Assembly: GCF_007856155.1 (NCBI RefSeq)
Contig: NZ_CP042266.1
Location: 1,302,001-1,366,000, forward strand
From: Streptomyces qinzhouensis
Lineage (GTDB): Bacteria > Actinomycetota > Actinomycetes > Streptomycetales > Streptomycetaceae
Direction: 5' to 3'
Length of the DNA stretch: 64,000 bases
Position numbers and translations under genes: made by a program. Positions 21,979 through 38,315 of the stretch are shown here, in pieces. Under the pieces are notes generated by a model. That model was not told the DNA's origin. It was given only the letters and a program-made list of their open reading frames with translations, and did no database searches. How positions within the stretch are numbered: the stretch's first letter is position 1; every line of letters starts with the position of its first letter.

Positions 21979-22537
21979 CGAGCGGTCTCCTCGCGGCTCG
22001 GAGGGTGGGGGACGGCCGCCCGGGAGGGAGGACCGGACGGCCGGAGCACCGGGAACAACGGTCATGCGAAATGTGGTGCTCACGACAAGTTACGCATGGG
22101 TAATCCGATGAGGGGAAGTTACGCGTCGGTAAAAACTGAGCACATGTCAGAAGGTCCACCGCGCCCCCCGACGGCGACCGGGCGAGCCGGGCCCCGCACC
22201 GGGGCCGCACCGGGCGCGCCCGCGCCCGGGCCTTCGCCGAGACCCCTCGGGGCGCGCCCGCGACTCCCGGCCCCGCGCCCGATCGGCATCCTGGCCGGGC
22301 CCCCGGCCCGTACCGAAAGACCGCTCGGGGCGCGACCGTGACTCCGGTACGGGCTCCGCGCCCGGCCCGGGCGGGTATCCGGCAGGCCGCACGGCCCGGC
22401 GCGGCGCCCCGGCGGCGTTCTCCCCCTGCCCGGGCCCGGGCCCGGGCCCGGCGCCGCGCCCCGCCCGGGCTCGGGCCCGTCGCCCGTTCGGCCCCCTTCC
22501 GCCTGCGCGGAACCCGCCGTCCACCGACCGTGGGGCC
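21979..22537. other. Very GC-rich intergenic region with CCCGGG repeats
   Basis: The 559 bp between the divergent lipase and membrane-protein genes holds no gene I can support. A short AT-richer stretch near 22080-22145 probably carries promoters. The rest is dominated by Pro/Gly/Arg-type GC runs, including a self-complementary (CCCGGG)n block near 22430-22456. Confidence 0.45.
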
Positions 22538-23674
22538 ATGACGCGGACCACGGACGGCGACCGGCCCACCCCTCACCCCCCGGCCGGAACACCCCCGCGC
22601 CCCGGCTTCCTCGACGAGGTCAGGGACGCGGTCAGCCTCCGCGCGGCACTGTTGATCATCGGGGTGCTCGCGCTCCAGCTGGGCTTCATCACCTCCTACA
22701 TCGGCGCCTTCCACCATCCGAAGCCCACGGACATCCCGCTCGCGGTCACCGCGCCCACCGCCGCCGCCACCGAGCGGGCGGTACGGGAGCTGGCCGCACT
22801 GCCCGGTGACCCGCTCGACCCCGCCGCCGCACCCGACGAGGCGACCGCCCGGGCCCGGATCGCCGACCGTGACGTCGACGGCGCCCTGATCCTCTCCCCC
22901 ACGGGCCCCGACCGCCTGCTGGTGGCCAGTGCCTCCGGGGCCTCCCTGGCCGACGCCCTGACGGCCGTCGTCACCCGGGCCGAGAAGGCCCGGGGCCGTA
23001 CCGTCGACGTGGTGGACGTGGTCCCCGACGCCCCCGGCGACGCCCGCGGGCTCACCTCCTTCTATCTGGTCGTCGGCTGGTGCGTCGGCGGCTACCTCTG
23101 CGCGGCCGTCCTCGCCATCAGCGCGGGCGCCCGGCCCGCCAATCCGGCCCGCGGGCTGATCCGGCTCGCCGTGCTGCTGCTGTACGCGATCGTCACCGGA
23201 CTGCTCGGGGCGGTGATCGCCGGACCGGTACTCGACGCGCTGCCCGGGAGCGTGCCCGCGCTCTGGGGCCTCGGCACCCTGCTGGTGTTCGCCGTCGGGG
23301 CGCTCACCCTGGCCCTCCAGGGCCTGGCCGGGATCATCGGCATCGGTCTGGCGATCCTGCTGGTGGTCGTGCTGGGCAACCCCAGCGCGGGCGGCGCCTA
23401 TCCGTATCCCCTGCTGCCGCCGTTCTGGAAGGCCATCGGCCCCGCCCTGCCGCCCGGCGCGGGCACCTACGCGGCCCGGTCCATCGCCTACTTCCGCGGC
23501 AACGGCGCCCTCGGCCCGATGCTGGTGATCGCGGCCTGGGCGCTCGGCGGGGCCATCGTCACCATGGTCTGTGCGGTACTGCGGCGGCGCGCCACGGAAC
23601 GGGAGGCGTCCCCCGGAGCAGCCGCCCCGGCGGCCCCGGCGGCCCCCGGCGACGGAACCGCCCGGGGGGCGTAG
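22538..23674 (+). CDS. Multi-pass membrane protein, ABC-2/YhgE-Pip-like
   Basis: This 378-residue protein has one membrane helix near residue 45 (ALLIIGVLALQLGFITSYIGAF), then a roughly 130-residue extracytoplasmic domain containing IADRDVDGALIL. Five more helices follow. This helix-large loop-helices layout matches ABC-2-type or YhgE/Pip (DUF3533-like) proteins that help export lipids, peptides or polymers. No ATPase is adjacent. The C-terminus is Ala/Pro-rich. Topology is clear; cargo is unknown. Confidence 0.75.
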   Translation: MTRTTDGDRPTPHPPAGTPPRPGFLDEVRDAVSLRAALLIIGVLALQLGFITSYIGAFHHPKPTDIPLAVTAPTAAATERAVRELAALPGDPLDPAAAPDEATARARIADRDVDGALILSPTGPDRLLVASASGASLADALTAVVTRAEKARGRTVDVVDVVPDAPGDARGLTSFYLVVGWCVGGYLCAAVLAISAGARPANPARGLIRLAVLLLYAIVTGLLGAVIAGPVLDALPGSVPALWGLGTLLVFAVGALTLALQGLAGIIGIGLAILLVVVLGNPSAGGAYPYPLLPPFWKAIGPALPPGAGTYAARSIAYFRGNGALGPMLVIAAWALGGAIVTMVCAVLRRRATEREASPGAAAPAAPAAPGDGTARGA

Positions 23675-23841
23675 CACCGGCGCACGGCGGCGCATCCCCG
23701 CCGCGACCGCTCTCGAATCTGCCGCCAAGGGATGGAAAAACCTGCTGAGCCGCGGCACGTAATGGGTAATCATCAGGAGGGCGGGGAATCCAGACTGTTC
23801 GGCTGTCACGCCCTCCGGGGCGCGGGGCGAAGGGGGACGGA

Positions 23842-24711
23842 GTGCGACGTCGGGTGCGCACGAACGACGGGCGCCATCTGATCGCGGAACTATCGGGAGA
23901 TCCGGGGGGCAGATCGGTCTTCCTGCTCCACGGCACCCCCGGCAGCAGACTCGGTCCGGCCCCCCGGGGCATGGTGCTCTACCAGCGCGGAATGCAGCTC
24001 ATCGCCTATGACCGTCCCGGTTACGGCGAATCGGACCGGCTCGCGGGCCGCAGCGTCGCCGATGTCGCCCAGGACGTCCTGGCCATCGCCGACGATCTGG
24101 GTCTCGAACGGTTCTCGGTCGTCGGCCGCTCCGGCGGTGCGCCGCACGCCCTGGCCTGCGCCGCGCTGATGTCCGACCGGGTCGACCGGACGGCGGCCCT
24201 GGTGACCCTGGCGCCCCGGGACGCGGTCGGTCTCGACTGGTTCGACGGCATGGCCGCTTCCAATGTGGACGCCTACACCTCCGCGCTGGACGACCCCATC
24301 GCCTTCACCAAGCTGTTCACCCTGCGCTCCGACGAGATCCGCCGGGATCCGATCAGGCTCCTCAACGACCTCCGCAGCGAGCTGCCGGACTCGGACCGGG
24401 CGGTGGTCGCGGACGCGGGTGTCCGGTCGATGCTCCTGCGCAACTACCAGGAAGCCCTGCGGATGTCGGCCTGGGGCTGGATCGACGACGCCCTCGCCTT
24501 CTCCAGCCCCTGGGGCTTCGACCCGGCGGACATCGACTGCCCGGTGCTGCTCTGGCACGGCGAGCAGGACGTCTTCTCTCCGGTGGGGCACTCCCGCTGG
24601 CTGGCCGAGCGCATCCCGGGGGTGACCGCCGTCCTGGAACCGGCCGCCGCCCACTTCGACGCCCTCCACGCCCTGCCGGGCATCCTGACCTGGCTCACCG
24701 AGGAGCTCTAG
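23842..24711 (+). CDS. Alpha/beta-fold hydrolase
   Basis: This 289-residue cytoplasmic hydrolase has oxyanion motif VFLLHGTPGSR (residue about 27) and YDRPGYGESDR. The nucleophile elbow GRSGGAPHAL near residue 94 has Ser, the acid is probably in WHGEQDVFSP, and the His in AAAHFDALHALP. The start is GTG 23842. Such proteins include proline iminopeptidases, haloperoxidase-like enzymes and esterases; the GTPGSR motif suits an esterase/lactonase-like enzyme. It stands alone and ends at a strong hairpin shared with fxsT. Confidence 0.88.
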   Translation: MRRRVRTNDGRHLIAELSGDPGGRSVFLLHGTPGSRLGPAPRGMVLYQRGMQLIAYDRPGYGESDRLAGRSVADVAQDVLAIADDLGLERFSVVGRSGGAPHALACAALMSDRVDRTAALVTLAPRDAVGLDWFDGMAASNVDAYTSALDDPIAFTKLFTLRSDEIRRDPIRLLNDLRSELPDSDRAVVADAGVRSMLLRNYQEALRMSAWGWIDDALAFSSPWGFDPADIDCPVLLWHGEQDVFSPVGHSRWLAERIPGVTAVLEPAAAHFDALHALPGILTWLTEEL

Positions 24712-24773
24712 GGCAGCCCGATCCGGAAGAAAGACCCCGGGGCCGAGAAAGACCCCGGCCGCCGGGCGAGGAG

Positions 24774-24803
24774 CGGGCCGGGACGCCTTCGCGTCCCGGC
24801 CCG
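24774..24803. terminator. Strong bidirectional hairpin between hydrolase gene and fxsT
   Basis: A perfect 13-bp stem, CGGGCCGGGACGC (24774-24786) with its complement (24791-24803), closes on a CTTC loop. TTTCC follows on the plus strand. It is placed to end both the hydrolase transcript and the long FxSxx operon. Confidence 0.8.
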
Positions 24804-24822
24804 TTTCCGTCCGCCCCGCGGC

Positions 24823-27800
24823 TCACACCGCCAGCGGCTCCAGATCCCGGTGCACCCGCCGCTCGTCCCGGGCGAGCCGGGTCAGCGCATGGTCGTCCCC
24901 GAGCTGACGGCCCAGCTCCTCCACGGTCTCGATCCGCAGCACGGCGGACTCGTCCTTGCGGCCCAGCATGCCGAGGGTGACCGCGAGATTGGAGGAGACC
25001 GCGAGCACCTCGGGGTGGTGCGGTCCGAGGACCTCGCGCAGCCGGCTCACCGTCCGCTGTTCGATCTGGCGGGCCTCTTCCAGATTGCCGAGGTCCGCCA
25101 GCGCGTTGGCGAGGTTGATGGTGGTGAACAGCGCGTGCGGATGGCTGTCCCCGAGGATCGCGCTCATCCTCCGTACCACCTGCACCAGCAGTTGTTCCGC
25201 GGTCTCCGGATCGCCACAGCCCCAGTGGAAGATGCCCAGATTGTTCATGGCGGCCAGGGTGTACGGATGCTTCTCGCCCGGCACCACCATGTACTGGTCG
25301 ACGACCTCCTGCGCCAGATCCCGGGCCGCCACCGGCTCCCCGGCGGCGAACAGGTCCGCCGCCAGATTGAGGTCACAGGCCAGGGAGTCCGGATTGGCCG
25401 AGGAGTACTGCGAGCGGTAGCGGTTGCGGGTGGCCGTGGTCAGCCGCCGCGCGTCCTCCAGCTGCCCGGCCCGGCGCAGCGACACCGCGAGCGACTTCGC
25501 GGCCGCCAGCGTGCCCGGGAAGGTCCGCCCCAGCTGCTGCTTCAGCAGGTCGTACGTCCGCGCCAGCAGGACCACCGAATCCTCGTAGCGGCCGACCTCC
25601 CGCAGATCGCGGGCGAGCGACGTGGCCGAGGAGAGGGTGTACGGATGCAGCGGCCCGAGGACCTCGGTCCGCCGGTCGAACACATCCTGGTCCAGCTCGC
25701 GGGCCCGGGCGTACTGGCCGACCATCCGCAGATTCAGCGCCAGGTTGTTCGCCGCGGCCAGGGTCCGCGGGTGGGACTCGTGGAAGATCTGGCTGAAGCC
25801 CTCGTGCGCCTCGGTCGCCAGCTCCATCGCCTTGCCGTACTGCCCCAGCGTGCCCAGGTCCATCGCCAGACCGCTGGTGGTCATGTACGTATGCGGATGC
25901 GTTTCGCCCAGCACCTCGCGCTGCCGGTCGAGCGTCACCTCGTCCAGCTCCTTCGCCTCCACATAGCGGCCCTGGGAGCGCAGGATGTTGGAGAGATGGA
26001 AGCGGAGGTAGAGGTACTGGTAGTCGTTGTTGCCCAGCATCTCGCGCCAGGTCTCGCGGACCTCGGTGGCGATGGCCAGGGCGGACTCCCAGTCACCGCG
26101 CTTCCACAGATAGCGGACCCGGTCGATCAGCAGCCTGCGGGTCTCCGGCTCCCGGCAGTTACGCGCCTCCGAGGTGGCCAGATGCGGCCAGATGGTGGCG
26201 AACTGCGGCCAGGTGGAGGGGTTGTCGATGGGCTCGTCGTCATCGGGCCGGGAGCCGGCCAGCACCTGGTGGACGGCGTGCCGCGCCTTCTGCTGCTCCT
26301 CGTCGCTCAACTGGGCCCTGATCACGGCCTGCACCAGCCGGTGGACCTGGATGCTGTTGTTGACCTGGTCCACCTTGGCCAGCGCGAACCGCCCGATCTC
26401 CCGGATCACCCGGCCCAGGACCAGCTTCTCCTGGAGGGAGGGGTCGTACGGCTTGAGAGCGTCGATCATCTCCTTGCTGTACAGCAGATTCGCCGAGATG
26501 GGCTCGGGGGCGAAGAAGGCACAGAGCTGAAGGAGGCGCACCGCGGCGGGCGAGCGCTCCTTGAGCCGTTCGATGGAGACGTTCCAGGTCGCGGCGACCG
26601 GCTCCGGATAGCCCGGGGGCTGGTTGAGCGCCAGCACACTGGTGGTCTGCTCCTTCAGCTGCTCCAGATACTCGGCCACCGGCGTCGCGGTCTCCGCGAT
26701 CCAGGCGGCCGCCTGCTCGACGGCGAGCGGCAGATCGCCGACGGCCATGGCGACCTGGTCGGCGTCGACGTCGCTCAGCCCGCGGGCCCGGCGCTGGAGG
26801 TGCTCGATGGACTCCTCACGGGTGAAGACGTCGATGGGCAGCGCGTCGCCGTACTGCGACCAGGTCTGGTTCCGGGAGGTGACGAGGATGTGCCCGGGCC
26901 CCTGGGGCGGGAAGAACCGCTTCAGCTGCTCGGGGTCGTCGGCGTTGTCGAAGACCAGCAGCCAGCGGGTCGACGGCACCCCCCGCCGCAGCAGATCGAT
27001 CGCCTCGCGGGAGGCCGCCGCCATGTCCTCCCCGGACTGCGCCCCGAGCCGGCTGGCGAGTTCGGCGAGGCTGGCGACGACATCGTCGACCTGTTCCGCG
27101 GAGATCCACCACACCAGGTCGTAGTCGGCCATGAAGCGGTGGACGTACTCGATGGCCACCTGGGTCTTGCCGACGCCGCCGAGTCCGTAGATCGTCTGCG
27201 GCTGCGGCAGCACCGCGGCCACCGACATCCCGCCGCCGAGCTGGTCCCGCATCCGCTCCAGGACAACGGCCCGCCCGGTGAAGCCGGGGTTGCGCGGCGG
27301 CGCGTTCCAGATCTTGGGGACGGTGCCGGGGAACCGGGGGCCGGGCGCCGAACTGTCCGGCAGCTGGACCGGCCGGTCCAGCGCCCGCAGCAGGGTGCTG
27401 GTGGCCTGCACCTCGTCGAGCCGGAAGAGATCGACGGGATTGCGGTCGATGTACGGGGTGGTCAGCCGGACGTCGCCGACCCGGATGGGCAGCAGATGCT
27501 GCCGGCCGCCCCCGGGGTCGTCGGCCACGGCCCGGGACCAGACCTCCACCGCCCGACTGGACTTCATGTACGCGGAGGAGAGCAGCACCACCGTCCGCGC
27601 GGCGCTCTCCGGGGTGATCCCGCTCTCGCCGGGTTCGCGCTCCACCGAGACGTCCCGGGGCACGACCCGGAATCCGGCCCGGGTCAGCAGCGACTCGATC
27701 CAGTCGGCCCACATCCGGTTCTCCGCCACATAGCTCAGGAAGAGATCGGCGGGCAGGGCGGGGCGGCGGCGGGTGAAGGCGTCCTTGATGCGCAGCCGGG

Positions 27801-28764
27801 AGTCCTCGCCGACGGTCGGCATGGCGGTGACATCGTGCTCGGTGATGACCGAGGTGAGCCGTTCGAAGGCGGAGAGCAGCGAGTTGGTCAGACCGGCCTC
27901 GTCGCCGAAGGTGGCGAGGGTCTCCTCGTAGGCGTAGTAGGGGCGGTACGGGATCTCCACCGCGCCCCAGTAGGCGGTCAGCTCCTCGCCGGCGAGCCCG
28001 CTGGGCAGCCGGTCGAACTTGACCCGCGCCAGCGCCCGTCCGGCGTCGGCCTTCTCCTTCTCGCCCTCGTCGATCCGCATCGGCACCGGGTAGATCTTGA
28101 TGTTCCGGCCGCCGTAGCGCTCGTCGATCTGGCGGGCGACGGACGCCGCGCCGTCGATGGACTGGTCGCTGAGGGTGAAGCAGTCGACGAGGATGTCGGG
28201 GAGGTGGACGGTGCAGATGTCGGCGATGTCGGAGAGGCCGGTACGGCTGTCGATGAGGACGTAGTCGTAGTTGGCCTTCATATCGTCGCGCAGCGCGTCG
28301 AAGAAGAGACCGCCGCCGAGCCGGTCGTAGAAGTTGTCCCAGTCGAAGGTGGAGACGGTCGCCGAGTACTCCCGGTTCTGCTTGCCCGCGGAGACGAAGT
28401 CGAGCGTGCCGCCGTCGGGGAACTCCCAGCCGAGGATCTCGGGGGTGAGGGAGACCGCGTGCGGCTGGACCCGGGCGTAGTCCCGGTGCCAGTCGTCGCG
28501 GCGCGCGGTGTCGGGGGTGATCGCGGCCCAGGCGTACTCCGTGATCAGGTCGATGACACCGGTGGTGGCCCCGAGGGTGGAGGGGTCCAGAAAGGGATGG
28601 AAGAAGCGGTGGAGTCCCGGCGCCTCGAGGTCCCAGTCGACGGCGAGCACCCGCTTGCCGTTGGCCGCCAGGATCCAGGCCGTATTGGCCAGGGCCATCG
28701 TGCGGCCCGTGCCGCCCTTGTACGAGTAGAAGGTGACGATGCGTCCGTCACGACTGGCTGTCAT
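24823..28764 (-). CDS. fxsT: FxSxx-COOH system protein FxsT: ParA-like/TIR/NB-ARC/TPR multidomain protein
   Basis: This 1313-residue cytoplasmic protein is the last gene of the FxSxx operon. Its N-terminus is a MinD/ParA-type P-loop ATPase (FYSYKGGTGRTMALAN, residues 12-27; VDWDLEAPGLHRFF; LIDSRTGLSD). A TIR-like domain begins near 340 (ADLFLSYVAENRMWADWI; SSAYMKSSRAVEVW holds a candidate catalytic Glu). An NB-ARC STAND ATPase begins near 515 (IYGLGGVGKTQVAIEY; LVFDNADDPEQL). About ten TPRs run from roughly 890 to the end. The architecture is that of a signal-transducing or immune-type switch. ATG 28764 has GGAGG at 6 nt and overlaps fxsC by 17 bp. Its role in the system is not established. 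Confidence 0.9.
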   Translation of the reverse strand: MTASRDGRIVTFYSYKGGTGRTMALANTAWILAANGKRVLAVDWDLEAPGLHRFFHPFLDPSTLGATTGVIDLITEYAWAAITPDTARRDDWHRDYARVQPHAVSLTPEILGWEFPDGGTLDFVSAGKQNREYSATVSTFDWDNFYDRLGGGLFFDALRDDMKANYDYVLIDSRTGLSDIADICTVHLPDILVDCFTLSDQSIDGAASVARQIDERYGGRNIKIYPVPMRIDEGEKEKADAGRALARVKFDRLPSGLAGEELTAYWGAVEIPYRPYYAYEETLATFGDEAGLTNSLLSAFERLTSVITEHDVTAMPTVGEDSRLRIKDAFTRRRPALPADLFLSYVAENRMWADWIESLLTRAGFRVVPRDVSVEREPGESGITPESAARTVVLLSSAYMKSSRAVEVWSRAVADDPGGGRQHLLPIRVGDVRLTTPYIDRNPVDLFRLDEVQATSTLLRALDRPVQLPDSSAPGPRFPGTVPKIWNAPPRNPGFTGRAVVLERMRDQLGGGMSVAAVLPQPQTIYGLGGVGKTQVAIEYVHRFMADYDLVWWISAEQVDDVVASLAELASRLGAQSGEDMAAASREAIDLLRRGVPSTRWLLVFDNADDPEQLKRFFPPQGPGHILVTSRNQTWSQYGDALPIDVFTREESIEHLQRRARGLSDVDADQVAMAVGDLPLAVEQAAAWIAETATPVAEYLEQLKEQTTSVLALNQPPGYPEPVAATWNVSIERLKERSPAAVRLLQLCAFFAPEPISANLLYSKEMIDALKPYDPSLQEKLVLGRVIREIGRFALAKVDQVNNSIQVHRLVQAVIRAQLSDEEQQKARHAVHQVLAGSRPDDDEPIDNPSTWPQFATIWPHLATSEARNCREPETRRLLIDRVRYLWKRGDWESALAIATEVRETWREMLGNNDYQYLYLRFHLSNILRSQGRYVEAKELDEVTLDRQREVLGETHPHTYMTTSGLAMDLGTLGQYGKAMELATEAHEGFSQIFHESHPRTLAAANNLALNLRMVGQYARARELDQDVFDRRTEVLGPLHPYTLSSATSLARDLREVGRYEDSVVLLARTYDLLKQQLGRTFPGTLAAAKSLAVSLRRAGQLEDARRLTTATRNRYRSQYSSANPDSLACDLNLAADLFAAGEPVAARDLAQEVVDQYMVVPGEKHPYTLAAMNNLGIFHWGCGDPETAEQLLVQVVRRMSAILGDSHPHALFTTINLANALADLGNLEEARQIEQRTVSRLREVLGPHHPEVLAVSSNLAVTLGMLGRKDESAVLRIETVEELGRQLGDDHALTRLARDERRVHRDLEPLAV

Positions 28765-30082
28765 CCGTGTCCTCCGCATCGGGGGCAGTTCCACGCAACG
28801 TGTCCGGGACGTACTGGGTGGTGCCGTAGTCGGCCATGGGGCCGCGGAGTCTGGGGCGTTCGCCGCGGGCGGCGCCGGGCGGTGGTGCGGGCGGATAGAC
28901 CTCGGCATGGCGCAGATACTCCTGCGCCGAGGCCTCCACGACCTGGGGCAGGATCTGGCCGAACGCCTCGATGCTGAAGACGCCCCGGGCAGCCGCCCGG
29001 CAGGCGGGCCGGCCGTGGTTCATGGCATGAGGCATGGTCCGTTCCAGCCGTTCGGCGAGTTCCGCCTCGGAGTGGCGGCTCTGGGGATCGTCGCGGTTCC
29101 AGGGGACTACCACCGTGACCCAGGGACGGGGGGTGGCGTCGAAAGCGGCCAGCCGGGCGCAGCGCCGGTCGTCGACGAGCGCCCAGCGGTCGACGACCAG
29201 GATCTCCGGCCGGGCGGGCGGCTGCGTCGGATCGGGCAGCGTCTCGTGGTCGAAGGAGGAGACCGTCGCCTGGTAGTCGAGCGAACGGACCAGTTCCTGG
29301 GCCACCAGCGCCAGGGGCCGTGCGGAGTCGGGATGGTAAGGGTTCCAGTCCTGCGAGAGTTTGCCGTAGTAGTCCGGGGCGCGGCCCTCGGGGAGGTCGT
29401 GATGGGTGGGGGCGGCCACGGTGAGATGCATGGGCCGCGGTCCGCCGGGCCGGCCGAAGGCGCTGGGCGCGTGACGGTAGTCGACGGGACTGCCGGGAGT
29501 GACCCGGGTGGAGTCGGCGACGGCGACAATGCGCTTGGCGAGTTCATAGACCGCCGCCTCGTACTCCTCGGCGAGTATCCGCAGTTTGATCAGGCCGTAG
29601 AGCCCGTCGGTCACATAACGGTCGCCGAAGGCCCGGTGGTTGAACTGAAGCCGCTCCGCCGGACCCGGGAGTTGTTCGGGCGGCATCGGAACCCAGAGCG
29701 CCGGCACGATCGCCTCGGCCGAGCGGTTGCTCTTCGCCTGGTGATAGATCGCCCGCTGGGCAAATGCGTACCACTCCTTTCCGCACATCTCGCTGGCGAA
29801 ATAGCGGGGGGAGAAGAGCGGGACGAACACCCGGCAGTTCGCCAGTACATCGCCCAGCCGCTCGGACCATCCCTCGCCGGAGCGGATCTCCCGGTCCATG
29901 AAGCCCGCCGGAGCACCGGCGGGCAGATCGGTCATGGCCATCACATGACCGCAGAGATCACGGAAGAGCCGCTCCACCCACATGTCCGGGTCGGGGCCCC
30001 CTGCGCCGTACCGCGGTGTGTGTGCGTAACTCAAGAAGAAGTACGGCCGATGGTCCGCCGTACGTTGCGCTGTTTCCGACAC
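28748..30082 (-). CDS. fxsC: TIR-like protein FxsC
   Basis: This 444-residue protein begins with a TIR-like domain (YFFLSYAHTPRYG; DMWVERLFRDL; VFVPLFSPRYFASEMCGKEW, where the last Glu fits the TIR catalytic position). The middle region (MHLTVAAPTHHDLPEG, YYGKLSQDWNPYHP) and a domain starting ILVVDRWALVD are characteristic of FxsC in FxSxx-COOH operons. It is cytoplasmic with no membrane segment. Its 3' end overlaps fxsT. Whether the TIR domain consumes NAD or only scaffolds is unknown. Confidence 0.9.
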   Translation of the reverse strand: MSETAQRTADHRPYFFLSYAHTPRYGAGGPDPDMWVERLFRDLCGHVMAMTDLPAGAPAGFMDREIRSGEGWSERLGDVLANCRVFVPLFSPRYFASEMCGKEWYAFAQRAIYHQAKSNRSAEAIVPALWVPMPPEQLPGPAERLQFNHRAFGDRYVTDGLYGLIKLRILAEEYEAAVYELAKRIVAVADSTRVTPGSPVDYRHAPSAFGRPGGPRPMHLTVAAPTHHDLPEGRAPDYYGKLSQDWNPYHPDSARPLALVAQELVRSLDYQATVSSFDHETLPDPTQPPARPEILVVDRWALVDDRRCARLAAFDATPRPWVTVVVPWNRDDPQSRHSEAELAERLERTMPHAMNHGRPACRAAARGVFSIEAFGQILPQVVEASAQEYLRHAEVYPPAPPPGAARGERPRLRGPMADYGTTQYVPDTLRGTAPDAEDTDDSQS

Positions 30083-30193
30083 ACGACCCCCGTCCTGTGT
30101 GAACGCCCGCCCTCGCGCCCGACATCGAGGGGAGATGCGAGCGAATTAATCATTACGGAGCCCGGACACTCCTTCCCCCCGTGGTTCAGTCAA

Positions 30194-30958
30194 TCAACGC
30201 CGCTTTTCAGACATCCAGCGGTCCGCATGGCGAACCGCTTCCTTGATCGGGAACAACCGGGTCCGGCGTCCTCCCAACTGCCCCGTCCGTACCAGTCCGG
30301 GAGGGAAATCAGCACCGATCGTGTCAAATTCCAGGTCGTCCAGGACGACATCTTCGTACGTTGTCCATTTCTTACCCCCATTGGGCCGCCGAACCACACA
30401 GGAGTAGGGCCTGCGGGGTGCACTCGGGTGGTACTCGGCGAGATGGAAGGCCGTGCATACCGAGAAATCCACATTGATCATCAATACCCGGGCCCCGGCC
30501 CGGTGCAGGGCTCCGAGGGGAGAGTCCCAGCCCAGATGGGAGGTGAGGGGATGGTGGGCCAGGAGTTCGGCCGCCCGGGCACCGAGTGCGGTGAACGAGG
30601 TCTGCGGATGGGAACTGCGCACCGCGCCCGGCGCGGTGCGTACGGACTCGGCCAGTCTGCCCATCCCCTCGCTCGGGGTGACGGCCGGATCGAAGGCCGG
30701 CATCCGCTCCCTGAAGTCCCGCACCCGGTCGGCCGTCATCCCGTCGATCCGGTCCAGATGCGCCTGGGAGGTGGTGGAGTTCGCCGGGGTGAAGGCGGGG
30801 GTGACCAGGGTGCCGCCGGGGCCGAGGGCCGCGACGAGGGCGTCCCGCAGGGTGTCGGCGGCCAGTCCGGTGCCCCGGAGGGCGGCGTGGACCAGCAGGA
30901 TCGACCCCGGTTCGACGCCCAGGGCGGTCAGCTCCGCGGTGATCCCCGGATCAGCCAC
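30194..30958 (-). CDS. AAC(3)-family acetyltransferase of the FxSxx operon
   Basis: This 254-residue protein starts at GTG 30958, overlapping the fxsB stop by 8 bp. AAC(3) features include GSILLVHAALRGTG near residue 20, LGPGGTLVTPAFTP, and SHPQTSFTALG. The family His lies in TAFHLAEYH. The usual GYGEGSP-type segment is replaced by LGWDSPLGAL, so it is a divergent member. AAC(3) enzymes acetylate aminoglycosides, but related enzymes modify other amines. Its place between the maturase and fxsC suggests N-acetylation of the RiPP product or of a pathway ligand; self-resistance is less likely. Confidence 0.85.
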   Translation of the reverse strand: MADPGITAELTALGVEPGSILLVHAALRGTGLAADTLRDALVAALGPGGTLVTPAFTPANSTTSQAHLDRIDGMTADRVRDFRERMPAFDPAVTPSEGMGRLAESVRTAPGAVRSSHPQTSFTALGARAAELLAHHPLTSHLGWDSPLGALHRAGARVLMINVDFSVCTAFHLAEYHPSAPRRPYSCVVRRPNGGKKWTTYEDVVLDDLEFDTIGADFPPGLVRTGQLGGRRTRLFPIKEAVRHADRWMSEKRR

Positions 30959-33221
30959 GCCCGCCGCTCTCCCCGGCGGCGGATGCCCCCCGGAGGTCCC
31001 GTCGCTCGGCTCGCAGTCCGGCCAGCAGGGCGTGCCCGGCCGCGGTGAGCTCCGGTGCGCGCGCCAGGGTCTCCAGGGCGGTGTCGGTCCCGGTCGCCGC
31101 CGCGCCGTCGAGGGCGGCGAGCCCGATGCGTACGTACACCTCCTCCAGGAGGACCGAGGCGGGTACGGGGGCCGGGGCCCAGGGCGAGGGGTGGTGCCAC
31201 TGGCCGTCCTGGGCGAGCAGCCCGCCCACCCGGTGCAGGGCACGGAGTTTGGCGCGCCGCATGCCGCGCAGCAGCTCCGCGGCGAACGCCTCCGGCGAGG
31301 GCGGCAGGGCGAGCCCGAGCGCTCCGTACCCCGGTTCGCCGGGGTCGGGAAGCCCGGGCCGGCGCGGGCCCGGCACCCCGGTGGCCGCCAGGGGGGTGAG
31401 GGTGGTGAGGGAGACGGCCGTCTCGGCGGCCTGCCGGGGCGCGGCGGCGCGCAGCAGCGGCCAGGCCCCGGCGAGCAGCCGGTCCCAGGCGGCGGCCTCG
31501 TCGTCCCCGAGCCGGGGGGCGGCCGGGGTCTCGTGGCAGTCGCGGTAGGGGTCGAGGTCGTCCAGGAGAAGTGCGGGGATACCGTCCTGTCCGCCGACGG
31601 TCCTGACCGCGCGCCAGCCCGGCACTTCGGCCCCGGTGAGCGGGATTCGCACCGGCGGCCGGTCCGCGAGCTCGACGAGGAAGCCGTCGCCGTCCGGGCG
31701 TACGACCGCGGCGGCCGGGCCGTCGAGTGTCAGTTCCCCGAGGGCGGGCAGCCTCAGCACCCCGTCGTCGCAGGGCACCCGCACCGCGGGGCCCGAGCCG
31801 TCACGGACGCAGGCGGCCGCCAGATAGGCGGGCAGCCGGCCGGCGAGCGCCGGGGCGTCCGGGCGGGCCTCGCGCAGCGCGGCGAGGGTGTCCGTGAGCC
31901 AGTTCCGGGTGTACGGATGGCCCCAGAGCCGGTCGAGGACGTCCCCGCTCTCGTCGAGCGCGAGCAGCAGTTCCCAGGCGTCGTCCCAGCCGGCCCCGCC
32001 GCGTCCGGCGAGTTCACCGGTGAGGGTGCCGCTGAGCATCCGGGTGATGTCCTGGTCGTCGGCGAGGAGGGCACCGGGTTCCGTGATCGCCAGGGGCACC
32101 AGTTCCCCGCCGATGCGCCGTTCGATGCCGTGGATCAGGGCTTCGAGGTCGGTGCAGTAGACGGAGGTGTTGTCGAACTCGCCGGCCGTGCGGTAGCGGT
32201 GGGTGTAGAGCCCGCCGCCGCAGGAGCGCACCACGGGGCAGTCACGGCAGGTGTCGCTCACCGAGGCGAGCCCGAGCTGCCGGCTCCGGACCCCGGGGTG
32301 GGCGGCGACCTCGTCGAAGGTGTGCCGCAGTACGTCGAATCCGGTCGCCGCGGCGCCTTCGTAGGCGCTCTTGAGGGAGTCGACCTGCTCCAGGGCGCCG
32401 TCGGTCTCCACGACCACCAGGTCGGTGGGGGCCAGACCGAGGGACTCGGTGAGGCTGGGGCCGCCCGCGAGGGTGGAGAAGACGGATTCGAAGAGCCGCA
32501 CGGGGACCGGCCGGCCGTCGGCGTCCCAGCGGTCGAAGATCGTCAGCAGCCAGTCGGCGTACGCGGTGGGCGAGCCGTCCGGCCGGACCGGGGGCTGGTC
32601 CCAGGTCGCGTGCGGCAGCAGGAAGTCGATCCGCGGCGGCTCCAGTTCGGCCAGCGCGTCATAGACGGCGACGGGGTCGTTGGCCACGTCGACGGTGCAC
32701 AGCAGGCCGAGATAGAGATGGCGGTAGCGCTCCTGACGGAGCAGTTCCACGGCCTTCAGTACGAGGGGGTGGCTGGTGCGGCCGTCGGCGAAGCGGCGGT
32801 GCCGGTCATTGGCGGAACGGTCGCCGTCGAGAGAGATACCGACCTTGAGGCCGAACTCGGCGAAGAGGTCGAGATACCGGGGGCTCAGTTGTAGACCGTT
32901 GGTGTGGATACGGAGATCCAGTTCGGCGATGCCGTCCAGCGCCCGGGTCAGTTCCTCGCAGACGCGGCGCAATCGCGCGGGCCCCGCCAGCAGTGGCTCC
33001 CCTCCGTGCAGGATCACTGACACGGAGGGCAGGGCATGATTTTTGGCATGCTCGGCCAGTCGCAGAGCTGTCCAGGTAATCGCTTCGTCAGAGATTGCCT
33101 TCGGGCGGGTTCGCCAGCTCTGATCAGCGTGTTCGTAGATATAGCAGTGGTCGCAGGCGAGATCGCACCGGCTGTGCACCTTGAGAACGATCTCGCGGAA
33201 TGGGACCAGCGGTCCTGTCAT
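30951..33221 (-). CDS. fxsB: FxsB radical SAM/SPASM peptide maturase with degenerate HExxH-type extension
   Basis: This 756-residue enzyme has the radical SAM Cx3Cx2C at C19, C23, C26 and a SPASM cluster region (C325, C328, C334, C356; DTCRDCPVVRSCGGG). FxsB enzymes install a cyclophane (aromatic ring to side-chain carbon) in the precursor. Residues about 370-756 form an extension related to the HExxH beta-hydroxylase-like domain of other FxsB forms. Where HEFQH-type residues are expected there is LLRGMRRAKLRAL (650-662), so the metal site is lost. It overlaps the acetyltransferase gene and lies 56 bp behind fxsA. Confidence 0.93.
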   Translation of the reverse strand: MTGPLVPFREIVLKVHSRCDLACDHCYIYEHADQSWRTRPKAISDEAITWTALRLAEHAKNHALPSVSVILHGGEPLLAGPARLRRVCEELTRALDGIAELDLRIHTNGLQLSPRYLDLFAEFGLKVGISLDGDRSANDRHRRFADGRTSHPLVLKAVELLRQERYRHLYLGLLCTVDVANDPVAVYDALAELEPPRIDFLLPHATWDQPPVRPDGSPTAYADWLLTIFDRWDADGRPVPVRLFESVFSTLAGGPSLTESLGLAPTDLVVVETDGALEQVDSLKSAYEGAAATGFDVLRHTFDEVAAHPGVRSRQLGLASVSDTCRDCPVVRSCGGGLYTHRYRTAGEFDNTSVYCTDLEALIHGIERRIGGELVPLAITEPGALLADDQDITRMLSGTLTGELAGRGGAGWDDAWELLLALDESGDVLDRLWGHPYTRNWLTDTLAALREARPDAPALAGRLPAYLAAACVRDGSGPAVRVPCDDGVLRLPALGELTLDGPAAAVVRPDGDGFLVELADRPPVRIPLTGAEVPGWRAVRTVGGQDGIPALLLDDLDPYRDCHETPAAPRLGDDEAAAWDRLLAGAWPLLRAAAPRQAAETAVSLTTLTPLAATGVPGPRRPGLPDPGEPGYGALGLALPPSPEAFAAELLRGMRRAKLRALHRVGGLLAQDGQWHHPSPWAPAPVPASVLLEEVYVRIGLAALDGAAATGTDTALETLARAPELTAAGHALLAGLRAERRDLRGASAAGESGGRG

Positions 33222-33277
33222 TCCACCAGTCTAGTGGTCCGGCGACGGCAAAGTAGCCGAAACGCAGACCAAGCAGA

Positions 33278-33424
33278 CTAGAGCGACGAGTTGAACGTGG
33301 CGATGCGCACGGGACGTTCGGCGGCCGGAGCGGCCCCCGTCGACTTCTTCACCGCGCCACGCTCGGACTGCGGCAGGGAGACTCGGTTGCGCTTCGCCGC
33401 GGCGAAGGAGGCGGAGATCGTCAT
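33278..33424 (-). CDS. fxsA: FxsA RiPP precursor peptide (48 residues, ends FNSSL)
   Basis: The peptide runs from MTISASFAAAKRN to RPVRIATFNSSL and stops right after the FxSxx motif (Phe44, Asn45, Ser46, Ser47, Leu48), which defines the system. ATG 33424 has AAGGA 8 nt upstream; a longer upstream frame is not needed. Residues 1-40 are the leader, basic and Ala-rich. By family knowledge FxsB would crosslink Phe44 to the residue two positions on (Ser46). No protease or dedicated exporter is adjacent, so the product may stay inside the cell or remain uncleaved. Confidence 0.93.
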   Translation of the reverse strand: MTISASFAAAKRNRVSLPQSERGAVKKSTGAAPAAERPVRIATFNSSL

Positions 33425-33661
33425 GGGGGCCGTCCTTATTGATCTGTGTACATGATCGCGCACGATCTGGCTGTACAGCACGGATAACCAGGCGCCATTG
33501 CGGCGTCCGGCGGCACGACTCTACTCTCAAGTTCACCCGTAGCAACTCAGCACGTGAACACGTAACAGTTAGAGTTGCTTCATATTCTGTCAGGAAGGCG
33601 CGGAGGAAGCGATTCCACCTCTTGGGTGAGGGTGACGGCATAACTGCAGACAGGGGGAGGC
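33425..33661. promoter_or_regulatory. Divergent promoter region of fxsA and the DUF4231 gene
   Basis: This 237-bp stretch is clearly AT-richer than its surroundings. TGTACA occurs twice (33447-33452 and 33472-33477), flanking a GATCG..CGATC pair, and could be an operator. It must hold the promoters of the fxs operon (minus) and of the DUF4231 gene (plus), so the two may be co-regulated. Confidence 0.5.
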
Positions 33662-34591
33662 ATGTCCGGCAATCCCGGCCCGGCGGACGGCATCGTGTTC
33701 CGCAATACCGATCTACCTGCGCTTTTTCATCACACGGATGCCGTGGCCATCACCCGCCAGCGCGAGGCGATCGGCTCCGTACGCCGCCAGCTGCTGCTGC
33801 TCGTGGTGGGCGCGGCGGCGGCCGCACTGCCCGTGTGGAAGCTTGGTGACACGATCCAACTGGCGGGCGCCGTCAGCGTATTGGCCTATGCCGGGGTGCT
33901 GGCGATCGGCGCCCGGGCGTCGCACAGCGGGGCGAAGTCGCACTGGCAGCTGAACCGGTCCGCCGCCGAGTACATCAAATCGATGTGCTGGCGATATTCC
34001 GTGCATGGAACACCTTTTGACGCGCGCTCCACCGACCCGGACGAATTATTTGCCCAGCGCATCGAAGAAGGACTCCGGGAGCTGTCCAAAGTGGGCTGGC
34101 AGGATCCCCGGCCGCACCGTCCCGAGGTGGCGGCGGGAGAACTCGTCACCCCCGCCATGCGGAGGCTGCGGGATCAGTCGTTCGGGCTGCGCCGGGAGAC
34201 TTATATCCGCGACCGGCTGATCGAACAGCGGAACTGGTACCACCGCAGCGCGGAGACCTCTCGCCGGGTGACCCTGGTGTGGTCGGGGACGCTCGGGGTG
34301 CTCACACTGCTGGCGCTCGCCCTCTCGCTGTTGCACACCTTCTCCGTCGCCGAGTCGGCCGACGCGCTGGGCACCCTCTCCGCCGCGGCGGCGGCCTGTC
34401 TGGCCTGGAGCGAGATCCGCCGCCGCCGGCCGCTGATCGCCGCGCACTCCCTGGTGGAGGAGGACCTCGCGGCGATGCACTCGGCGATGGAGACCTCGGT
34501 GACGGAGTCGCAGTGGCCGTCGGCGGTGTACGAGACGGAGCGCATCGTGTCTCCGCAGCACACGGACTGGCTGGTCCGTCACCGCAGTTGA
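33662..34591 (+). CDS. DUF4231/SLATT-like membrane protein
   Basis: This 309-residue protein has two pairs of membrane helices: LLLLVVGAAAAALPVWKLG with LAGAVSVLAYAGVLAIGA, and VTLVWSGTLGVLTLLALALSLL with LSAAAAACLAWSEI. Each pair is followed by a helical cytoplasmic segment. The RDRLIEQRNWYHRSAE segment before the second pair is typical of DUF4231/SLATT 2-TM effector domains, predicted (Burroughs and Aravind) to form membrane pores in nucleotide-signal conflict systems. ATG 33662 follows GGGGGAGG closely. It diverges from fxsA and converges on a SLOG gene. Confidence 0.8.
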   Translation: MSGNPGPADGIVFRNTDLPALFHHTDAVAITRQREAIGSVRRQLLLLVVGAAAAALPVWKLGDTIQLAGAVSVLAYAGVLAIGARASHSGAKSHWQLNRSAAEYIKSMCWRYSVHGTPFDARSTDPDELFAQRIEEGLRELSKVGWQDPRPHRPEVAAGELVTPAMRRLRDQSFGLRRETYIRDRLIEQRNWYHRSAETSRRVTLVWSGTLGVLTLLALALSLLHTFSVAESADALGTLSAAAAACLAWSEIRRRRPLIAAHSLVEEDLAAMHSAMETSVTESQWPSAVYETERIVSPQHTDWLVRHRS

Positions 34592-34619
34592 GCCCCGGCC
34601 GGGTTCGTCCGGGAGCCGG

Positions 34620-35141
34620 TCAGGGGCGCCGGAGACCGTCCTGCCAGATGACCGTGACGGGTTTCCCGAGGTCGCGGGCGTAGTGGACGATGTCGGCCGT
34701 CCCGCCGAGGCCCCGGGAGGGGCCGCCGTCCCAGACCGCCAGCAACCGGTCGCAGTTGTCGGCGATATAGGCACCGGCCGCGTAGTACGCCTCGTCGGTG
34801 GAGTGCCGGAAGCCGAGCCGCACCTCCCGGGCCGCCCGGCGCCGGTAGTGGCGGAGGCTGTCCAGCTCGCCGGCGGCGAAGCCGTTCTCGTAGTCCTCGC
34901 TGGGGATCACGGCGGTCAGCGCCGCGCCGCATTCCAGTGCGATGTCGGCGAACAGCTGGTCGGCGCCGATCGCCAGACTGGAGTACGCCTCCAGACCTTC
35001 CTCGCCGAGGCGGAAGGCGGCGAGCAGGCCCGCGCGGATATGCGCATGGCCTTCCGGGGGAATGATGCGGTGGCCGGTGATACCGATGCGCTTCACTGCC
35101 GTACGACCCCCGTATCCCGCGTCCTTCTTACGCTCCGACAT
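34620..35141 (-). CDS. SLOG-domain (Rossmann-like ligand sensor) protein
   Basis: This 173-residue protein has RIGITGHRIIPP, a YSSLAIGADQLFADIAL strand-helix unit, TAVIPSEDYENGF, and RLLAVWDGGPSRGLGGTADIVHYAR. GGTADIV matches the SLOG nucleotide-derived-ligand loop (the YspA/LOG-related superfamily). SLOG proteins often pair with SLATT membrane effectors as sensor and pore. The start is ATG 35141 with a poor ribosome-binding site; GTG 35096 (VKRIGITGHR) is an alternative. Its 3' end is 28 bp from that of the DUF4231 gene. Confidence 0.82.
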   Translation of the reverse strand: MSERKKDAGYGGRTAVKRIGITGHRIIPPEGHAHIRAGLLAAFRLGEEGLEAYSSLAIGADQLFADIALECGAALTAVIPSEDYENGFAAGELDSLRHYRRRAAREVRLGFRHSTDEAYYAAGAYIADNCDRLLAVWDGGPSRGLGGTADIVHYARDLGKPVTVIWQDGLRRP

Positions 35142-35310
35142 GGTCCCAGAACGCGGCCCGGCGTCGAGACCCCGTCCGTATGGAGGACGGGCGCGCCGGG
35201 TCGCGGGTTGACCGGCGGCCGGCGCCACGGCGCCCGGTGTGCGACCAGGCGCCCGCTGTCGGGGGTTTGGCCGTACGGGGCCGGGGTCGCGGGGGCGGGC
35301 GGTGCGCCCG

Positions 35311-36153
35311 TCAGCGGGTCAGTGCGCGCCGCTCCCCCGCCGTCACCGGCACCGGCAGGGTGTTGCCCGGTGGCGGGAACGGACAGATGAAGTGGTCGGC
35401 GAAGGCGCAGGGCGGGAGCAGGGCGCGGTTGAAGTCGACCGTGACCGTGCCGTCCGCCGCCGGGGGGCGGGGGCGGAGAAATCGGAACCGGTAGCTGCTG
35501 GGCTCGCCGCCGGTGCCGGTCGGGTCGGCGAACACGGCCCACAGGGAGCCGTCGTCCTCGACCGCCACCCGCAGGGTCCGCTCGGCGCCGTCGAGTTCGA
35601 AGACGATCTCGCCGTCGAGGCCGAGGCCCCGGTCCACGCCGTCCGCGTTCCGCACCCGCAGTCCGGTCCGCTCCGGATAGGGGACGTAGCGTCCGGGCAG
35701 CGCCCAGCGGGCGTCGTACGCCGTCGCCTCGATTCCGGCGAAGGCCCGCCGGGCGGGGGCGCCGGGGTCGAAGTCGCGTACCGCCCAGAGCCCTTCGCGG
35801 TGCAGCACCGGAAACCGGCGCTCCCCGTGGCCGGCCCGGGCTTCCCCGATGGGCCCGTGGTCGGCGGTGAGCCGTGCCTCCCCGGTGAACGGGGCGCCGT
35901 CGAGGGTCAGCCCGTCGCCGTCGGCCGCGGTGAGCCGTACGGCATCGCCCTCGGCGGTCCACCGCCCGGGAAGACCGGGGATCCGTCCGTCCGGATGGTC
36001 GTCCAGCCAGTGGGTGCCGGTGAGGGCGAGCGGTCCGTAGGCACCGGAGACGACCGCGGTGCGGCGTTCGTGCCAGAGCTGCCACTCCGCCGCCGCGCGG
36101 GCCTCGTCGGACGGACCGTCACCGGTCCCGGTGTGCTGTACGTGACCGGCCAT
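35311..36153 (-). CDS. DUF1684-family protein
   Basis: This 280-residue protein has DUF1684 marks: EWQLWHERR near the N-terminus, LTGTHWLDD, RFPVLHREGLWAVRDFD, YVPYPERTGLRVRN, and the very conserved end VDFNRALLPPCAFADHFICP. It has no signal peptide. The family is common in actinomycetes; its biochemical role is unknown to me. ATG 36153 is chosen over the longer frame because it precedes the first conserved block. Confidence 0.85.
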   Translation of the reverse strand: MAGHVQHTGTGDGPSDEARAAAEWQLWHERRTAVVSGAYGPLALTGTHWLDDHPDGRIPGLPGRWTAEGDAVRLTAADGDGLTLDGAPFTGEARLTADHGPIGEARAGHGERRFPVLHREGLWAVRDFDPGAPARRAFAGIEATAYDARWALPGRYVPYPERTGLRVRNADGVDRGLGLDGEIVFELDGAERTLRVAVEDDGSLWAVFADPTGTGGEPSSYRFRFLRPRPPAADGTVTVDFNRALLPPCAFADHFICPFPPPGNTLPVPVTAGERRALTR

Positions 36154-36263
36154 GCCCGTCACCTTGCCATGCGGGGGCGCGTCGGCACAGGACCGGGGCG
36201 TATCGCGCGCCCCGAGGCCGTTCTGCGCCTCCGCCCGGACGGCGAGGGGCCGGGCGGTCCTCG

Positions 36264-37559: not shown

Positions 37560-37865
37560 AACATCCCCCCGTGCAAGCCGTTCAGCGGCGATTGTCATAC
37601 CGACCGGGCATGGTAACCACACGCTTGTACGACACCGGGCGGTTCCCGGCGTCACCCATCCGGCTCGACTTTCATATTTTGAGCAGATCATGCGCCTTAT
37701 TCGGGAAGGAACCTGACGAACCGCCACAAGTTCTGCACCAGTACCGTCACGAATCCCCTGCGCCGCGGCAATCCACGTGGCACCCGGTCCGCATGATGGA
37801 CGACCATAGGGGCAGGGACGACAACAGACCGCCGAGACGGCGGACCACGGAGAAAGGAGGCGTCG
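37560..37865. promoter_or_regulatory. Divergent intergenic region of the DUF5685 gene and sflA
   Basis: These 306 bp hold no supportable gene. The middle (37600-37760) is less GC-rich than average and probably carries both promoters. A near-consensus ribosome-binding site AAAGGAGG lies at the right edge for sflA. Confidence 0.45.
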
Positions 37866-38315
37866 ATGGGATCTGTTCGCAAGGCGAGCGCCTGGCTGGG
37901 CCTCGTCGAGGACAACGACGACCGCTACTACGCCGACGGCTACGACGGCGAGTACGCCGAGAGCGCCGAGCCCGGCGAGGTCTGGGCCACCGACCCGCGG
38001 GTCAGAGTCGCCTCCGAATCCGTTGCCCAGGAGGACGGCCGCCGGATCGCGACCGTCTCCCCCACCTGCTTCCGGGACGCCCGGGGCATCGGTGAGCTGT
38101 TCCGTGACGGTGTGCCCGTGATCATCAATCTGACGTCGCTGGAGCCCGCCGACGCCAAGCGGGTGGTGGATTTCGCCGCCGGGCTGACGTTCGGGCTGCG
38201 CGGTTCCATCGACCGGGTCGCGACCCGGGTCTTCCTGCTCAGCCCCGCGGACACCCGCGTCGTCAACGGCGAGGGACCGGGCCGCGCCCAGGACGGTTTC
38301 TTCAACCAGAGCTGA
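37866..38315 (+). CDS. sflA: SepF-like cell-division protein (SflA-type paralogue)
   Basis: This 149-residue protein has the SepF layout: an N-terminal amphipathic [13 protein letters not shown] for membrane binding, an acidic Tyr/Asp-rich linker, and a C-terminal SepF domain (about 60-140) with [34 protein letters not shown]. SepF tethers FtsZ to the membrane. Streptomyces has SepF in the division cluster and two paralogues, SflA and SflB. This copy is outside any dcw cluster, so it is a paralogue; the SflA name is from remembered gene order. The ribosome-binding site AAAGGAGG is nearly ideal. Confidence 0.85.

Follow-up and report, generated by a model that had tools for sequence, protein, structure and literature searches.

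A SLOG–SLATT pair and a hydrolase beside an FxSxx-COOH operon of Streptomyces qinzhouensis suggest a possible intracellular alarm circuit

Described FxSxx systems and the locus of S. qinzhouensis

FxSxx systems with an AP-ATPase and a TIR domain have been predicted to act as conflict modules that yield a "peptide toxin or signal" (Kaur et al., 2020; PMC7159879). Here we analyze such a locus in a 64,000-nucleotide stretch (hereafter the window) of the 8.15-Mb single-contig genome of Streptomyces qinzhouensis (NZ_CP042266.1, positions 1,302,001 to 1,366,000). As far as the accessible text of that paper goes, the locus shares with the described systems a precursor with a C-terminal FxSxx motif, a radical SAM/SPASM enzyme (FxsB), an AP-ATPase (NB-ARC) protein with TIR, a MinD/ParA-like domain and TPRs (FxsT), as well as the predicted conflict role; the zincin-like (HExxH) part, presented there as a precursor-cutting peptidase, has lost its motif in the FxsB of the window. 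The FxSxx operon, the inactivated form of FxsB, which NCBIfam already recognizes, and the conflict prediction are therefore already known, and curated NCBIfam models exist for fxsB, fxsC and fxsT. SLATT, SLOG or an alpha/beta-hydrolase are not mentioned together with FxSxx systems in the available part of PMC7159879, and the available parts of PMC7159879, PMC9503650, PMC12632851, PMC12483538 and PMC11256431 do not link SLATT to FxSxx. Moreover, neither SLOG–SLATT and a hydrolase as fixed fxs companions nor a split of TIR roles was met in the literature searched, which comprised mostly freely accessible papers, represented by parts of their text. Based on sequence comparisons, we suggest with moderate confidence that the locus, an FxSxx-COOH system with an inactivated-hydroxylase FxsB joined by a SLOG–SLATT pair and a hydrolase, is most likely an intracellular immune-like alarm circuit.

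Individual parts of the locus have counterparts in other systems, which are summarized here from partially available sources. The triceptide enzyme MscB, like FxsB a radical SAM/SPASM enzyme of the FxsB type, makes a C4(Phe)–Cbeta(Ser) link from residue i to i+2 (reviewed in PMC11002830), whereas in the window the motif lies at the extreme C terminus, immune-like genes adjoin it and the Phe–Ser link is a prediction. In the ChlBH-type alpha-ketoglutarate (aKG)-HExxH beta-hydroxylases (cited in PMC12636437) a radical SAM/SPASM part is likewise followed by a hydroxylase-fold extension, but in the window the metal-binding HExxH is replaced by RGMRR. In Thoeris, the TIR protein ThsB makes cyclic ADP-ribose variants that are sensed by the SLOG domain of ThsA, and SLATT has been predicted to be an effector of the membrane regulated by ADP-ribose (PMC9503650). 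Similar to Thoeris, our locus combines a TIR protein with a conserved glutamate (FxsC Glu103) and a SLOG protein; unlike in Thoeris, this SLOG protein stands alone (158 aa), pairs with SLATT instead of SIR2, matches ThsA in fold more weakly than YpsA or DprA, and is accompanied by a receptor resembling nucleotide-binding leucine-rich-repeat (NLR) proteins and by a ribosomally synthesized and post-translationally modified peptide (RiPP). SIR2 does not occur among the Pfam matches of the locus proteins, which thus do not include a ThsA-type SIR2-SLOG protein. Finally, phage defence by DRT10, composed of a reverse transcriptase, a non-coding RNA and SLATT, requires the SLATT protein, which is predicted to form pores (PMC12632851). 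There, too, SLATT is the membrane partner of a defence system, but the trigger arm is different, and no reverse transcriptase was found among the window-locus proteins scanned.

The features of the locus, with coordinates in the window and the evidence for each, are as follows.

23854..24711, + strand: alpha/beta-hydrolase (Abhydrolase_1), convergent with fxsT, candidate peptidase or other hydrolase (PF00561; ORF, i.e., open reading frame, 23842-24711)
24823..28764, - strand: fxsT, ParA/MinD-like P-loop (KGGTGRT), TIR, NB-ARC and TPR (NF040586, NF047398, Pfam TIR_2/NB-ARC/TPR)
28748..30082, - strand: fxsC, TIR with conserved Glu103 and an FxsC C-terminal domain (NF040588, TIGR04276, AlphaFold2 model)
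30194..30958, - strand: AAC(3)-like (Antibiotic_NAT) N-acetyltransferase homologue, optional member (PF02522, 220 bits)
30951..33221, - strand: fxsB, radical SAM/SPASM cyclophane maturase with C-terminal extension (TIGR04269, NF040587, cysteine motifs)
31005..32093, - strand: inactivated aKG-HExxH beta-hydroxylase-like extension, FxsB residues 377-739 (NF040587, TIGR04267)
31254..31268, - strand: site of the HExxH motif, reading RGMRR, FxsB residues 652-656 (alignments)
33278..33424, - strand: fxsA precursor, 48 aa, with the core FNSSL at 33281-33295 and a diverged leader (position, ribosome-binding site, relatives)
33541..33579, no strand: inverted repeat AGCAACTC...GAGTTGCT between fxsA and the SLATT gene, operator-like in appearance (recognizable, with changes, in 6 relatives)
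33662..34591, + strand: protein with SLATT_3 and SLATT_1, divergent from fxsA, candidate membrane effector (PF18184, PF18181, hydropathy)
34620..35096, - strand: SLOG-fold protein, 158 aa, convergent with the SLATT gene, candidate ligand sensor (fold comparison)

The SLOG–SLATT pair and the hydrolase at fxs loci

The SLATT family was reportedly defined in a 2015 paper, and the protein of the window lies far above the gathering scores of both PF18184 (123.8 bits; 26.3) and PF18181 (116.1 bits; 26.3), with four hydrophobic segments in its hydropathy profile. The 158-aa product of the convergent gene found no match in Pfam up to E 10, nor did the longer ORF of the gene in NCBIfam, and it is the Rossmannoid fold of SLOG that identifies it; a PDB sequence search with both proteins gave no usable match. 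A second, weaker SLOG relative (130.7 bits) is encoded elsewhere in the same genome (G000:C1:4014492-4014968), with no SLATT_3 match there.

The linkage of these genes to fxs was followed in a genus search of 150 genomes, 42 of which (including that of the window) lie above the NF040587 cut-off, and in a class search of 394 genomes, where FxsB was found in 79. We fetched 56 loci via the genus search (those of all 41 other genomes above the cut-off and 15 lower-scoring ones, taken nearly in score order) and 20 selected among the FxsB occurrences in the class sample, and added the window. Neighbouring genes were clustered for the 75 loci with a called FxsB (the window being represented by 22001-38000), while the FxsB tree contains 70 loci, with L049, L112 and L092 omitted and FxsBs of at most 450 bits (including L088-L091) unused. 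A second set, partly overlapping the first, comprises 47 fxs loci. Genes were called with a simple codon-usage script, which missed the SLATT gene in L051 and L065 and the hydrolase gene in L068, the latter being visible in the homologue search.

Within the genus, SLATT_3 was detected in 40 of the 42 genomes above the cut-off, G054 and G040 being those that lack it, and in 9 of the 108 others (Fisher p 3e-25, uncorrected for relatedness). It lies on the same contig as fxs at a distance of 2.0-7.7 kb in 39 of these 40 genomes; in the remaining one, G028, it adjoins the 5' part of fxsB where a contig ends. Of the nine SLATT_3-positive genomes without an NF040587-type FxsB, two were inspected (G007 and G057), and the SLATT_3 of G007 sits in an fxs locus whose FxsB has no extension. 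In the class sample SLATT_3 is present in 29 of 394 genomes; by eye, 16 of the 29, which belong to three families, have it at no more than about 8 kb from FxsB, and 13 away from it. Three weak cases in this sample are SLATT_1/DUF4231 proteins (L102, L109, L110). Of the 44 fetched loci with SLATT, 43 also contain the SLOG gene, and none of the 26 loci without SLATT does; the gap between the two genes is 4-1490 nt (median 27; 41 pairs with called genes). The two genes are about 11 kb apart in the 44th locus (L073, G079) and about 4 kb apart in G028. Both genes occur in 30 of the 47 loci of the second set, and one alone occurs in none. Moreover, 41 of the 42 SLOG matches above 200 bits in the genus belong to an fxs locus, if the match in G079, at a distance of about 14 kb from fxsB, is counted.

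The pair also remains together where the layout has changed, namely in nine rearranged loci (L054, L055, L057-L062 and L111; hydrolase, fxsB, AAC(3)-like gene, fxsC, fxsT, SLATT, SLOG reversed) and in L107, whose order differs again. The FxsBs of L107, L108 and L115 are distant and carry no extension, and the SLATTs of these loci fall inside one 14-row group (support 99 in the SLATT tree, with a long-branch warning for L108); therefore, the pair appears to be mobile among fxs types. The SLATT of L099, where HExxH is intact, is distant (33% identity at best, likewise with a long-branch warning) and perhaps represents a separate or an old link. Both genes can be missing inside a clade that has them, as in L071 (G040). 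In G005 (L113:8194-9450) the hydrolase gene is broken over three frames and adjoins an ORF that seems to join remnants of SLOG (residues 13-74, 73 bits) and of the last part of fxsT (35 bits), which is likely a deletion scar.

The alpha/beta-hydrolase is a widespread neighbour, too: it lies beside the operon in 59 of the 70 loci, with the catalytic Ser conserved in 58/59 (one gap) and the Asp and His each in 59/59. A homologue at E <= 1e-50 was found in 42 of the 42 genus genomes above the NF040587 cut-off and in 15 of the 108 others, of which at least five (G049, G057, G063, G067 and G104) carry other fxs loci and G005 a remnant.

It could be argued that SLATT and SLOG are a separate conflict module of two genes, which only happens to travel with the fxs operon, since 26 of the 70 loci lack them, the pair has its own strand arrangement, and in G057 (L114) it is found away from fxs. 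However, the SLATT of L114 nests inside the fxs-linked SLATTs (98 in the SLATT tree), hence this pair is probably a leftover. The linkage recurs with distant FxsBs (L099, L107, L108, L115), and as SLATT_1/DUF4231 in L102, L109 and L110, and strong SLOG matches are, as described above, nearly confined to the surroundings of fxsB. Given this, we regard independent hitch-hiking as quite unlikely.

The fxs operon, its precursor and its maturase

The initial annotation of the window described a complete operon of five genes on one strand. Our analysis confirms that fxsA, fxsB, the AAC(3)-like gene, fxsC and fxsT follow each other on the - strand, but not that they are complete, as the hydrolase, SLATT and SLOG genes also belong to the locus. 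While the gene order was correct, the coordinates of the AAC(3)-like gene become 30194-30958, and fxsT most likely starts at 28764 instead of 28908, judging by its overlap with fxsC and by the length of its relatives. With this start, fxsC and fxsT overlap by 17 nt; fxsB and the AAC(3)-like gene overlap by 8 nt, and gaps of 56 and 111 nt separate fxsA from fxsB and the AAC(3)-like gene from fxsC, respectively.

As proposed, fxsA (33278-33424 including the stop codon) encodes 48 residues ending in FNSSL; its start is backed by a AAGGACGG ribosome-binding site that is identical in 7 aligned sequences, and a comparison of FxsA with the NCBIfam models returned zero matches. An ORF ending in F-x-S-x-x lies directly upstream of fxsB in 54 of the 70 loci (window included), compared with 0 of 428 antisense control ORFs, and a looser F-x-S pattern was found in 59/70 and 4/428, respectively. 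With a still wider pattern and stop-to-stop reading, used without a control, an FxsA-like ORF is seen in 64/70 loci, and the second set has such a precursor in 44 of 47. The C-terminal F-x-S is thus kept across fxs loci, and the loss of the motif in all close relatives, named beforehand as a result that would speak against this assignment, was not observed. The leader of the window's FxsA has diverged: it lacks the PLxx[IVLA] stretch, as do 22 of 63 other precursors, and it is the sole one of 31 in its FxsB clade without [LIVM]-[GSAN]-R, as judged by eye on aligned precursors. Most Streptomyces relatives in the second set keep both stretches. The DNA alignment contains an in-frame 9-nt gap in fxsA, and the core FNSSL is intact. 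Either FxsB tolerates the diverged leader here, or this copy is fading.

The cores themselves vary within the genus, reading FQS[SA][VL] in loci with an intact or almost intact HExxH (5 found; L078-L081, L085, L086) and mostly FNSAL, FSSAL or FDSAL where it is lost. Since the L093-L099 group, with HExxH intact, reads FNSSI, this rule is not general. The FxsA of L082 and L083 ends one residue later (FQSSIG and FSSSVG), and therefore the motif is not always exactly FxSxx-COOH. Upstream of fxsA, a block at 33505-33585 that is conserved in 6 relatives contains the inverted repeat GCAACnCT / GAGTTGCT (with changes) followed by AGAGTAAAGTCGTGCCGCC (in the fxsA sense), and is a possible operator and promoter common to fxsA and the divergent SLATT gene; a scan of 33200-33760 for sigma-70 promoters and terminators found nothing.

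FxsB was rightly taken for a radical SAM/SPASM enzyme, with 585.9 bits to TIGR04269 (cut-off 370) and with its CxxxCxxC motif (CDLACDHC) and SPASM cysteines intact; we take IPR026335 to be the entry of this family. It scores 352.3 bits with NF040587, the "inactivated beta-hydroxylase extension form", and its extension still passes TIGR04267 (44.6 bits, cut-off 40). Where relatives read HEFQH, the window has RGMRR, so that the HExxH which marks the aKG-HExxH beta-hydroxylases is absent. Among the 70 FxsBs of the tree, HExxH is intact in 15 and lost in 51, and 4 have no extension. As many as 47 of the 51 form one clade (SH-like approximate likelihood ratio test support 98) that includes the window and in which all 47 members are devoid of the motif. 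Because the dead domain is kept at full length, the hydroxylase fold probably still serves binding or structure.

We also considered whether the loss of HExxH explains other traits of these loci. As the cause of the association with SLATT and SLOG it is unsupported: L099 retains HEFQH and has both genes, while L082-L084 and L087 have lost the motif and have neither. Nor do the data support the idea that the AAC(3)-like enzyme stands in for the hydroxylase, given that 3 loci with intact HExxH carry it and 15 SLATT-bearing loci with lost HExxH do not. The presence of this gene in the operon (30194-30958) was confirmed with PF02522 (220 bits), and it occurs in 36 of the 70 loci. Its score of 133.7 bits is far under the curated AAC_3 cut-off of 270, and together with its position inside the operon this led us to reject a role as an aminoglycoside resistance gene.

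These genes would also fit a conventional RiPP cluster, in which FxsB would mature FxsA, the hydrolase or secreted proteases would trim it, and the AAC(3)-like enzyme would acetylate it before its release as a peptide with bioactivity or a signalling function; FxsC, FxsT and SLATT would then be regulators or self-protection. Maturase and precursor are conserved, the intact-triad hydrolase and the acetyltransferase accompany them in the 59 and 36 loci mentioned above, and secreted proteases of the alpha-lytic type (cluster 6; e.g., L056:13735-14637 (-) and L038:1635-2720 (-)) are found at 30 loci of the window's clade, with none in the window stretch 22001-38000. However, the acetyltransferase is often absent, and no transporter-like family occurs in more than 12 of the 75 clustered loci (YhgE/Pip-like 12, purine permease 8, ABC ATPase 7). 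Hence, of the earlier statement that neither protease nor exporter is visible, the part on the exporter is supported, and the part on the protease is incomplete, in view of the candidate hydrolase. Moreover, an NB-ARC/TPR protein, a TIR protein with a conserved Glu and a SLOG–SLATT pair would be unusual for export clusters. We therefore consider a conventional RiPP cluster unlikely.

Several other genes near fxs were recorded. In the window, the neighbour of the hydrolase gene encodes a membrane protein (22538-23674, +), which contains several hydrophobic segments and weakly matches YhgE/Pip (C-terminal); as its cluster is found in 12 loci only, it is not a general exporter of the system. Clade-bound neighbours include a DUF1684 protein (cluster 7; 28 loci, including the window) and a luciferase-like enzyme (16 loci). 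In 8 loci (L039:12313-12984 (-) and 7 others), SLATT and fxsB are separated by the gene for a 223-aa protein that has about two hydrophobic segments and matched nothing in Pfam. Farther away, the window encodes an ADP-ribosylglycohydrolase family protein (PF03747; 53697-54749, -), located about 19 kb from the SLOG gene with no evidence of a link, and, at its left end, a protein with a protein kinase domain (6173-7858, +) and a DUF5925-AAA ATPase (12750-13892, +).

FxsT, FxsC and the proposed circuit

The domain assignments of both remaining operon genes are well founded. FxsT matches NF040586 with 1053.3 bits (cut-off 300) as well as Pfam TIR_2, NB-ARC and TPR, and its ParA domain has a conserved P-loop (KGGTGRT) and matches a KGGVGR-variant model. 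The Walker A Lys and the Walker B Asp of its NB-ARC domain are each conserved in 68/68 sequences, whereas the usual position of the catalytic Glu of TIR is not conserved (E in 17 and D in 17 of 68, others in the rest). The TIR-like nature of FxsC is confirmed by NF040588 (235.7 bits, cut-off 130) and TIGR04276 (217, cut-off 55). Its Glu103, which we take to be the catalytic TIR glutamate, is conserved in 49 of 51 sequences (34/34 with SLATT and 15/17 without), the exceptions being Q in L086 and L103, both without SLATT. In the AlphaFold2 model of FxsC (mean predicted local distance difference test score, pLDDT, 84.4) the best PDB matches are the plant TIRs RUN1 and L7, and the structural match to plant TIRs such as RUN1, an NADase, is modest (E 7e-4, TM-score 0.47 by target). 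The simplest reading of these patterns would be that FxsT is the receptor and scaffold and FxsC the TIR enzyme. In PADLOC, the ParA-like part of FxsT matched the candidate PDC-M28B (5.4e-23), FxsB the viperin-like pVip (1.2e-8) and, weakly, the SLOG protein ShosA (0.0012).

Taken together, we propose the following alarm circuit. FxsB would link Phe44 of FxsA to Ser46 without hydroxylation, and the ring-closed peptide would stay in the cell, where it would set the state of the NLR-like receptor FxsT (NB-ARC/TPR), with the TIR of FxsT itself possibly serving as a scaffold; an intracellular role of the FxsA product in place of that of a secreted antibiotic, as suggested in the initial annotation, fits this scheme. 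Once triggered, FxsT would recruit FxsC, whose TIR may use NAD+ to produce an ADP-ribose-type signal. The SLOG protein could sense this signal, and SLATT would then alter membrane permeability, so that the cell stops. Trimming or acylation of the peptide, or of another small ligand, may fall to the hydrolase and, where present, to the AAC(3)-like enzyme, which could thereby finish or remove the peptide. A bolder and rather doubtful version, offered tentatively, is that the cyclophane RiPP is the built-in ligand of a bacterial NLR, FxsT, which it would lock or arm after modification by FxsB, and that disturbance of its making or binding fires the FxsC signal, which SLOG reads and SLATT executes.

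The same proteins could instead serve as a developmental or stress switch of multicellular actinobacteria, with the modified peptide as an internal cue read by FxsT and a membrane or NAD+ response acting in differentiation rather than against phages. The genes sampled around the locus look housekeeping-like, clusters 6 and 7 flank 30 and 28 loci, respectively, and the conflict systems treated in PMC7159879 (available in part) are said to occur preponderantly in multicellular prokaryotes. On the other hand, the distribution is patchy, with 42 of 150 genus species above the cut-off, and the locus has decayed in G005. We consider such a switch improbable.

Several observations weigh against the alarm circuit. 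The FxsA-B-C-T core can do without SLATT and SLOG, as their absence from 26 of the 70 loci indicates, and the relatedness of the genomes inflates the linkage counts. The ligand of the SLOG protein may not be an ADP-ribose, since its fold is nearer to YpsA and DprA than to ThsA, and PADLOC gave no match for FxsC, SLATT, the AAC-like protein, the hydrolase or FxsA. The secreted proteases of cluster 6, which often flank the relatives' loci on both sides, could hint at processing outside the cell in those relatives; part of the flanking genes are common to several loci, and the 20 genes of the window that were sampled in its neighbourhood have an ordinary chromosomal appearance. Finally, the FxsA copy of the window may be poorly modified, as its leader is without the stretches common to its clade.

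Our findings imply that the whole FxsB clade keeps a dead hydroxylase domain and that its product should carry the ring without a hydroxyl group. If the bolder version of the alarm circuit, with the peptide as the ligand of FxsT, is correct, the locus would represent a peptide-gated, Thoeris-like abortive-response circuit and provide the first role for FxSxx peptides. The SLOG–SLATT output, along with the division of labour between FxsT and FxsC, turns the vague notion of a "signal or effector" into testable steps, namely NAD+ use, a nucleotide signal, membrane damage and dependence on the peptide.

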